DNA from: Apostichopus japonicus
Lineage: Eukaryota > Echinodermata > Holothuroidea > Aspidochirotida > Stichopodidae
DNA: 64,000 nucleotides
Assembly (NCBI RefSeq): GCF_037975245.1
Contig: NC_092578.1
Location: 12,260,321 to 12,324,320, forward strand
Reading direction: 5' to 3'
The stretch's first letter is position 1, and each line of letters starts with the position of its first letter. A program made the position numbers and the translations under genes. A model generated the notes under the pieces. That model was not told the origin of the DNA and did not search any database. It worked only from the letters and a program-made list of their open reading frames with translations. Below are positions 3,037-6,100 of the stretch, piece by piece.

Positions 3037-3197
3037 GTTTTATCTGCTGATTCCATACTGTGTACGTGTTAGTGATATTTGGAAGATGCACCGGAAAACG
3101 AGACTGAAGTTGACGGAGCTAAATCCGTTGTTGACATGTTCACTCTGTACTGGGTACCTAATAGATGCAACCACCCTCACAGAATGTCTACACTCAT
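3037..3197 (+). CDS. PCGF copy A, coding exon 1 (5'UTR 3037-3085, CDS 3086-3197)
   Basis: A pyrimidine-rich acceptor (TTCTTTCAG) ends at 3036, so the exon starts in the 5'UTR and at least one upstream non-coding exon is expected. ATG at 3086 begins [14 protein letters not shown], matching the family N-terminus. It encodes RING ligands C18, C21, C34 and H36 and ends in phase 1 after a T, with donor GTAAGT at 3198. The same split (Ser37/Phe38) occurs in copy B. Confidence 0.92.
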
Positions 3198-6100
3198 GTA
3201 AGTACCTAATAGATGCAACCACCCTCACAGAATGTCTACACTCATGTAAGTACCCAATAGATGCAACATGCACCCTCACAGAATGTCTACACTCATGTAA
3301 GTACCTAATGGATGCAACAACCCTCACAGAATGTCTACACTCATGTAAGTACCTAATAGATGCAACCACCCTCACAGAATGTCTACACTCATATAAGTAC
3401 CTAATAGATGCAACCACCCTCACAGAATGTCTACACTCATGTAAGTACCTAATAGATGCAACCACCCTCACAGAATGTCTACACTCATGTAAGTACCTTA
3501 CAGATGCAACCACCCTCACAGAATGTCTACACTCATGTAAGTACCCAATAGATGCAACAACCCTCACAGAATGTCTACACTCATGTAAGTACCCAATAGA
3601 TGCAACATGCACCCTCACAGAATGTCTACACTCATGTAAGTACCTAATGGATGCAACAATCCTCACAGAATGTCTACACTCATGTAAGTACCTAATAGAT
3701 GCAACCACCCTCACAGAATGTCTACACTCATGTAAGTACCTAATAGATGCAACCACCCTCACAGAATGTCTACACTCATGTAAGTACCTTACAGATGCAA
3801 CCACCCTCACAGAATGTCTACACTCATGTAAGTACCTAATAGATGCAACCACCCTCACAGAATGTCTACACTCATGTAAGTACCTAATAGATGCAACAAC
3901 CCTCACAGAATGTCTACACTCATGTAAGTACCCAATAGATGCAACATGCACCCTCACAGAATGTCTACACTCATGTAAGGACCTAATGGATGCAACAATC
4001 CTCACAGAATGTCTACACTCATGTAAGTACCTAATAGATGCAACCACCCTCACAGAATGTCTACACTCATGTAAGTACCTAATAGATGCAACCACCCTCA
4101 CAGAATGTCTACACTCATGTAAGTACCTTACAGATGCAACCACCCTCACAGAATGTCTACACTCATGTAAGTACCTAATAGATGCAACCACCCTCACAGA
4201 ATGTCTACACTCATGTAAGTACCTAATAGATGCAACCAACCTCACAGAATGACTACACTCATGTAAGGTTACAGGAATAATTCACATGTTTATCGTATAT
4301 TACCAACGAAATACTGCTATTAAATGTTCTCATGCCAAAAGCTTTCCCATTTATATATCACGAAAGAAATTCATGGAAAAACAGCGAGTGCGCCTCTCGG
4401 TCGTACCCATTTGATTATTCAGTAGCTTTTTAGAGTCTATAATTCTCTTCGTACTCCATTTGGCTGTTCTTACACTCCATTATAAGTAACAATATTGCAT
4501 ATTTGTGTAATGGCATAATATTTATGTGGCTAAATGATCTCTAATATTAGGAGTCTGTAATAGCTAGGAAGGTTGTTTTGGAAACGGAGCCCAGCGAAAG
4601 AGGCCGTCGAATCAGTTTGGGCAGTCCGGACAAAGTGAATCTGGTGACGTCAGTATCCATCTTCGCGCACATTGCAAGTGAAAAATCCTCTGAACTAATG
4701 TGTTTAGCTTAATTCAGGGCTGGCGTTCGTTCACTCTGTCCTGGATATGGTAAATGCAATCACCTTGAAAAAAGATATTTACGTATATAATGACTTATCA
4801 CACAAAAGGTTACCCTCTACATCGCTCCTCTCTTACCTGTCTCAAGTACATATGCACTCTGTTCTACCTAGCTCATACGACAAGTTGGTAACATTTTTGC
4901 ATTGTGCCCGCGGCCTCCAACACGTAGCAGGAAAATGATGATGGCCATTAGATGGACGTACATGTACCAGTGCGCACGGGGTGGGGACATGCCCCTATCT
5001 CCCATCATTAGTCGGGGGGGGGGAGTGTATCAGTCAGATTATTTGGGCATTCAGACGGGAAGACCTAGACCACTTTTACCGAACTACGGATGTACCCCCC
5101 TCTTCCCTTTTTTCAATCTCACGCAAAGTTTTAGCATAACCTACGTTATTGTATAAATATGCTTCGGAATGCACCATTTGACGTCTACATTTCGTTTTCT
5201 GGGGGAGACAGACCCCTCCCTCTACACCCAGACCCAACCCCCTCCATACAACCAGACCCAACCCCCTCCATTCACCCAGACCCAACCCCCTCCCTACATA
5301 GGAGTCGGCTTCAATGACATTTAAAAAAGATAATTGAGTCGCCTCTGGCCTTTCATTAAGGTTCAGGTCCTACCTAAATCAGTCGGGGGACATTTTGAAT
5401 TTGCCACTCTATCCCCACCTCTAAAATCCTGAGCACGCCACTGATATGTGCAATAAGTGCACAAAATCCCTGATTGATTTGAGCAGTTTATACCACGGTA
5501 GCATGGGCGTCAGCAGGTTTCAGAAAGTGAGGGGGACACTATACTATCTAAGCGGAGCGCCACCATTGGTTGGCGCGTAGCGTACCAGAAAATTTTGGGT
5601 ACATAAGACCCCCTAGATCGCAGGAGACGGCCTTCCTGAGTCGTTTTTAGTTACATCAGAACCAGATCTGTGAGGAGAAATTTTGTCTCACAAAACTAAA
5701 TCCCGACAGAAAGTACTGGTAGAAAGATGCCGTTCTGACACCAAGGGAGACGAATTACACAGCGTCCATCTCAAACGAAATATTGAAAAAGTGGCGCCGT
5801 CACCTCCGGGATGAGTGGAGTGGTATATATAATACATGCATGTAGGTGCGAGACGTCAGTTGTTATGTGCCCAGGTACTTTAATAATAATAATCAGAAAA
5901 AGGCACCGCGCGCAGAGCGTGTGTAGCGCCTAGCCGGCACTCAACAATAAAGATCTACCATATCCGGCGAATACATGTAGCCTTAATTACTTAACCCCTA
6001 CACCCCTATTCGTCCGTCCAGACCAAGGGACTGGAGGTAGTGATATGAACATAGTAACTCATCACCATCTACCTGTATGGCTTACCTAATCCCTTGGAAC

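Follow-up and report, generated by a model that had tools for sequence, protein, structure and literature searches.

A minisatellite of splice donors across an exon–intron boundary of a sea cucumber PCGF2/4 gene, probably removed with the intron

The analysed stretch of Apostichopus japonicus DNA, 64,000 nucleotides long and referred to here as the window, contains two genes of the Polycomb RING finger (PCGF) family, indicated as copy A and copy B, both on the forward strand; a third intact paralogue, copy C, with eight open exons, is found 91 kb off, at lower coordinates and on the opposite strand. Exon models were built by hand for all three, from inter-copy homology and splice-site motifs, and should be read as predictions. 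In copy A, coding exon 1 (3086–3197) encodes the first half of the RING and ends at donor 1, a GTAAGT starting at 3198; the second half is encoded by exon 2 (6532–6628), whose start had been placed at the same position by an earlier note on this DNA. The remaining exons are located at 11038–11093, 11576–11623, 12602–12813, 13804–13902 (exon 6, where the RAWUL domain starts according to Pfam), 14460–14549 (exon 7, with a GTATGT donor from 14550) and 15850–16527 (exon 8, stop codon included); the model comprises 463 codons ahead of the stop, with no internal stop. The eight exons of copy B (36388–50997) are predicted at 36388–36499, 37280–37376, 39449–39504, 40366–40413, 41407–41615, 42329–42427, 44673–44762 and 50560–50997. 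Given donor 1, the homology models of copies A, B and C all provide complete eight-exon reading frames.

Copy A is a BMI1/PCGF2/4-type gene with a PCGF-type C3HC4 RING, in agreement with the earlier note, which had recognized a PCGF RING gene. Its joined exons 1 and 2 match BMI1 over 70/70 residues when analyzed by phmmer (e.g. 2ckl_A, 2.8e-31); BMI1 entries rank at the top, followed by PCGF6, PCGF1 and PCGF5. Pfam locates both the RING and the C-terminal RAWUL (PF16207, 2.8e-20) within the first 266 residues of copy A; of the two copies scanned, B also features PF16207 (3.6e-19), within its first 259 residues.

The end of copy A exon 1 is part of a tandem array (3154–4266, forward strand), composed of 23 units, 20 of 48 bp and three of 51 bp, as obtained by TRF and by splitting into units. 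TRF reports the array at 3154–4267, with period 48, 23.0 copies, 94% matches and a score of 1979, together with a second, higher-order period of 339 bp, corresponding to seven units, which suggests recent copying of blocks within the array. Each unit consists of the last 44 nt of exon 1 (3154–3197 in unit 1; 43 had been counted originally) followed by GTAA, which, along with the GT of the next unit, generates the donor GTAAGT. The exon end and its donor are thus repeated about 22 more times, as the note had described, and 22 extra near-identical donors are present. The same GTAAGT had been attributed to every unit: this holds for 20 of the 23, while unit 5 carries ATAAGT, where the GT is lost, and units 17 and 23 carry GTAAGG. 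From the ATG at 3086, the reading frame is open up to a TGA at 4250–4252, located in unit 23, upstream of the last donor (4263), exactly where the first stop had been reported.

The existence of the tandem repeat in copy A is beyond doubt. PacBio HiFi reads generally exceed 1.1 kb by a wide margin. An assembly error, or a collapsed repeat, could produce units as alike as these, as well as the 339-bp higher-order period; against this barely credible explanation, the Apostichopus japonicus assembly was obtained from PacBio HiFi reads, according to the available text of its report (PMC10344927), and the same form of array is found in copy C and in four kinase genes. A genome search with a two-unit query locates the exon-1 unit at two loci, PCGF copies A and C; within these counts, which are lower bounds, the many unrelated places typical of a dispersed satellite or mobile repeat are not observed.

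The same array closes exon 1 of copy C, here with nine units and GTAAGT in 9/9 donors. In-frame TAA codons are present in units 3, 5 and 6, and the last two units, of 47 and 49 bp, break the frame. No stop is common in place to the two arrays. Donors 3 to 9 of copy C all follow an in-frame stop, so that a full-length protein may be obtained only through donors 1 and 2. Copy B, in contrast, has no array at any of its seven donors and seven acceptors. The codon at which exon 1 ends is identical in the three copies: since B and C end at this same codon, donor 1 is the ancestral site. Intron 1 is present in copy B without an array, and does not derive, therefore, from intron gain by tandem duplication.

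The best explanation is, in our opinion, that of a minisatellite lying across the exon 1–intron 1 boundary, where donor 1 is probably used and the intron takes the remaining 22 copies with it. A tandem duplication spanning the boundary, in an otherwise intact PCGF2/4 gene, would have been the seed; with a donor of its own in every unit, the array could grow downstream without displacing donor 1, the ancestral one. In splicing, 3197 would be joined to 6532, and the 22 further copies removed along with the intron. As long as donor 1 still closes exon 1, the gene should tolerate the growth of the array, whose units would be self-removing; this would account for the survival of a gene with a minisatellite expanding in one of its coding exons. 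Unequal exchange would keep the array uniform, and the array shared with paralogue C would presumably have been copied between the two genes. If splice sites are taken in the order of their synthesis, copies made later would be ignored. Open models and ancestral position favour donor 1, without proving its use; against it, classical donor-competition tests often favour the donor nearest to the acceptor. The alternative considered in the earlier note, in which a single donor works and the rest are silent decoys, receives the best support from these sequence comparisons.

A similar arrangement is found in the human gene IFI6 (6-16), whose repeat unit reportedly measures 12 nt. There, according to the available text of PMC4526556, a minisatellite provides multiple donors, and two downstream units are cited as donors. 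Copy A is alike, being a tandem repeat at an exon–intron boundary whose units supply splice donors, and it belongs to the same type of donor-providing minisatellite: the unit holds the donor and the array straddles the exon end. The two differ in that use of later donors is in print for IFI6, while copy A is known here from its sequence; moreover, the 48-nt unit of copy A holds the true coding end of a RING exon.

By analogy with IFI6, the first few donors might also be used appreciably in copy A, adding 16 or 33 residues in functional isoforms; the RING loop bounded by zinc ligands 2 and 3, of 12 residues, would reach 28 or 45. The frame is indeed kept for donors 1 to 22 in A and for donors 1 and 2 in C, two downstream IFI6 units are cited as donors (PMC4526556, available text), and Pfam RING models match the conceptual one- and two-unit isoforms, whose loops would measure 28 and 45 residues, above cut-off. 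The best matches to the longer isoforms, however, begin inside both the profile and the inserted units, leaving out the original first Cys pair. In addition, copy C is limited to one extra unit, the frame is broken in the other arrays of this kind, described below, and the coding sequence of the units bears no sign of selection. Functional isoforms of this type are, on the whole, rather unlikely; low-level use of donor 2 or 3, in line with what is cited for IFI6, would by analogy be compatible with prevalent use of donor 1.

Neutrality of the coding sequence is suggested by the distinct substitutions found in copy A outside unit 1: seven nonsynonymous, two synonymous and one stop, where the possible single changes per unit are 101, 35 and 8, respectively, of 144. 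These changes look neutral and fit an absence of coding constraint. With 8/144 changes making a stop, 9 to 12 independent changes would bring none with a probability of 0.50 to 0.60: the open frame of copy A, being close to a coin toss, is unremarkable. A RING of variable length was one of the two options of the earlier note; a selected, frame-keeping form of it was dropped as the leading reading in view of the stops in units 3, 5 and 6 of copy C, its 47- and 49-bp units and the neutral changes in A. Selective conservation of the donor is not clearly seen either: the 9-nt donor, accounting for 9/48 positions, carries 2/13 distinct changes in A and 1/11 in C (3/24 in total), as counted from an alignment where each inserted base is one change.

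Most of the later donors are as strong as the first. Calculated pairing to the U1 end is equal (-6.9) for 20 of the 23 copy A donors, and does not single out donor 1, which, owing to the T ahead of its GT, is less strong than the majority of the other PCGF donors. Masking of the later donors by RNA structure was rejected: the 3086–3445 stretch is less structured than its shuffled versions (z +2.94; 100/100 shuffles fold at least as well), and the later donors within it should be open to U1. Equal strength and open folding would suit a reading in which donors near the acceptor often win, generating long, stop-bearing exons subject to decay, by which gene dose would be set; the stops of copy C (units 3, 5 and 6) and of copy A (unit 23) could be seen in the same light. 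In copy A, however, just the last, weaker donor lies past a stop, A and C have no stop in common, and recognition of much longer exons would be required: if the AG at 3035–3036 is the acceptor, the exon measures 161 nt through donor 1 and 1226 nt through the last donor. Regulation by such a poison array appears, therefore, very unlikely.

A second array is present in copy A (14531–14726, forward strand), where the end of exon 7 and its donor are repeated in 2.1 copies, with a TRF period of 91; related copies are found at 15490–15661, in the same intron. The corresponding array of copy C contains 5.5 copies. In these exon-7 arrays donors are spaced 91 to 100 bp apart; the second donor, which shifts the frame, has decayed in both A and C (GTTTGA in A), and later donors, some of them in frame, lie behind stops.

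Arrays running from an exon end through its donor were also found in kinase genes, named here after their best PDB matches. Two CDK11-like paralogues contain 11 and 12 copies of a 70-bp unit (locus L068, 1171–2005, and locus L069, 1169–1933, both on the reverse complement), and a MYLK4-like kinase 16 copies of a 31-bp unit (L043, 1854–2354), all frame-shifting. In a PKG1-like kinase, a 42-bp unit, with a stop within the donor, is repeated at least 6.6 times (L097, 396–674; the stretch ends inside the array). An initial CDK10 identity for an array-bearing kinase was dropped, the best PDB match being CDK11. In genome searches, whose counts are lower bounds, the CDK11-like unit was located at two loci and the MYLK4-like unit at one; like the exon-1 unit, each is local to its own exon or paralogue. 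Eight arrays of exon end plus donor were thus identified, at five exon positions, and only that of copy A exon 1 keeps its frame, free of stops, across almost all its donors, a further point against a variable RING. In the exon-7, CDK11-like, MYLK4-like and PKG1-like arrays, frame shifts and stops imply that a working protein needs the first donor.

These cases come from a sample of 104 exon-centred loci, with flanks of 250 to 1500 bases: 19 derive from a RING query, six of them being PCGF4 A–C, and 85 from 134 kinase matches (the 30 best and 55 picked by hand, mostly short ones, with apparent intronless matches passed over). Of the 98 loci other than PCGF4 A–C, four bear an array from exon through donor (95% interval 1.1 to 10%), in what is a single, kinase-heavy sample where the two CDK11-like cases do not count as independent. 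A donor-like motif is found near the match end in 56/104 loci and an acceptor-like one near the match start in 75/104, keeping in mind that match ends may fall short of exon ends. No acceptor-straddling array comparable to the donor ones is present in the 104 loci: the sole acceptor-side case is a 31-bp run of an A-rich decamer (L055). When recurrence of 24-mers was checked, five exon ends were positive (L006, L007, L068, L069, L097; L043 was missed), and no exon start recurred upstream, at 19/24 or more, in any of the 104 loci. Arrays near acceptors do exist, without straddling them, since they cover 901/26000 bases in the 250 bases upstream of matches, vs. 2229/26000 downstream.

By exon families, donors prevail over acceptors by 5 to 0 (p = 0.03, one-sided), or by 5 to 1 (0.11) when L055 is counted; with 5 families against 0 or 1, a strong claim of donor over acceptor was dropped, and the bias, resting on few cases, is a lead. 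Arrays with a period of 10 or more make up 7.8% of the window, and their share in the copy C region is 18%; with such a cover, two of the seven copy A donors falling in arrays is no great surprise. For A, B and C together, 4/21 donors are in arrays, vs. about 2.4 expected, and 0/21 acceptors. A choice of splice sites by order of synthesis would make donor arrays harmless, and acceptor arrays not, and would thus explain the bias. We only tentatively advance, as a possibility, that these arrays form a recurrent class, affecting donors and not acceptors, and tolerated through commitment of the spliceosome to the donor made first.

The earlier note knew of no described case of this form, but, in addition to IFI6, tandem repeats at exon–intron boundaries have been reported in human segmentally duplicated genes by De Grassi and Ciccarelli (2009; PMC2812944), whose available text describes 27 intron modifications of this origin. 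Those repeats are likewise variable, placed at boundaries, found in paralogues and either retained in exons or spliced out; they are reported to form new introns, while the PCGF intron is old, being present in copy B without an array. According to the available texts, the intron 6 VNTR of TERT (PMC3948165) is also an intragenic minisatellite bearing on splicing, but works through RNA pairing and is separated from exon junctions by more than 1 kb, and intron gain by tandem genomic duplication (PMC4974935) similarly ties tandem duplication to splice signals, but produces a new intron, which the PCGF case does not. Compared with IFI6, one gene here carries two arrays, both are also found in a paralogue, and the form recurs in unrelated genes. 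Neither a recurrent donor-straddling class nor sea cucumber cases appear in the open-access literature among the matches listed, a weak absence; the form itself is already in print, and the recurrence of donor arrays seems to be what is new.

The choice of the spliceosome among competing donors has mostly been studied with few artificial copies. Here up to 23 near-identical donors are found in cis, in several genes of a living animal, a species with array-bearing as well as array-free paralogues, whose HiFi genome is published (PMC10344927, available text). Many such genes, if confirmed, would constitute a natural experiment on whether identical donors are chosen by order of synthesis or by nearness to the acceptor.

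Copies A and C show two patterns of divergence. In exons 2, 3, 4 and 6, a dN of 0.059 with a dS of about 2.1, where synonymous sites are saturated, indicates purifying selection on both array-bearing genes; the C-terminal exon 8 is without such constraint (pN 0.45). Exons 1, 5 and 7 are nearly identical in the two copies (110/112, 209/212 and 89/90 nt, respectively), with synonymous differences at 4.5/94.8 sites, vs. 49/69.4 in exons 2, 3, 4 and 6. The identity breaks off within 1 to 9 bases of the exon, save where an array follows. Homogenisation is thus exon-sized, introns and other exons having diverged, and two of the three homogenised exons bear arrays; in our reading of the alignments, gene conversion over longer homologous islands may lie behind it.

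Other repeats were observed in both regions. That of copy C (C18:12147200–12186800), 18% of which is in tandem arrays, contains about 70 copies of a 31-bp unit and about 55 copies of an 18-bp unit, the latter stopping 65 bases short of copy C exon 2. In the window, an array of 105-bp units (32105–32914, 5.9 copies) is open over 269 codons; its Pfam matches are a fragmentary one to Reductase_C (28.7 bits, with a cut-off of 25) and two others below cut-off. Intron 6 of copy B holds a minisatellite (43324–44344) with about 43 copies of a 23-bp unit. Intron 7 of the same gene contains two hAT dimerisation fragments (PF05699; 46129–46446 and 49149–49478, forward strand), of which one passes the cut-off and the other does not, and a reverse-transcriptase remnant (PF00078, 7.6e-19) is found downstream of it, at 53774–54974 on the reverse strand.
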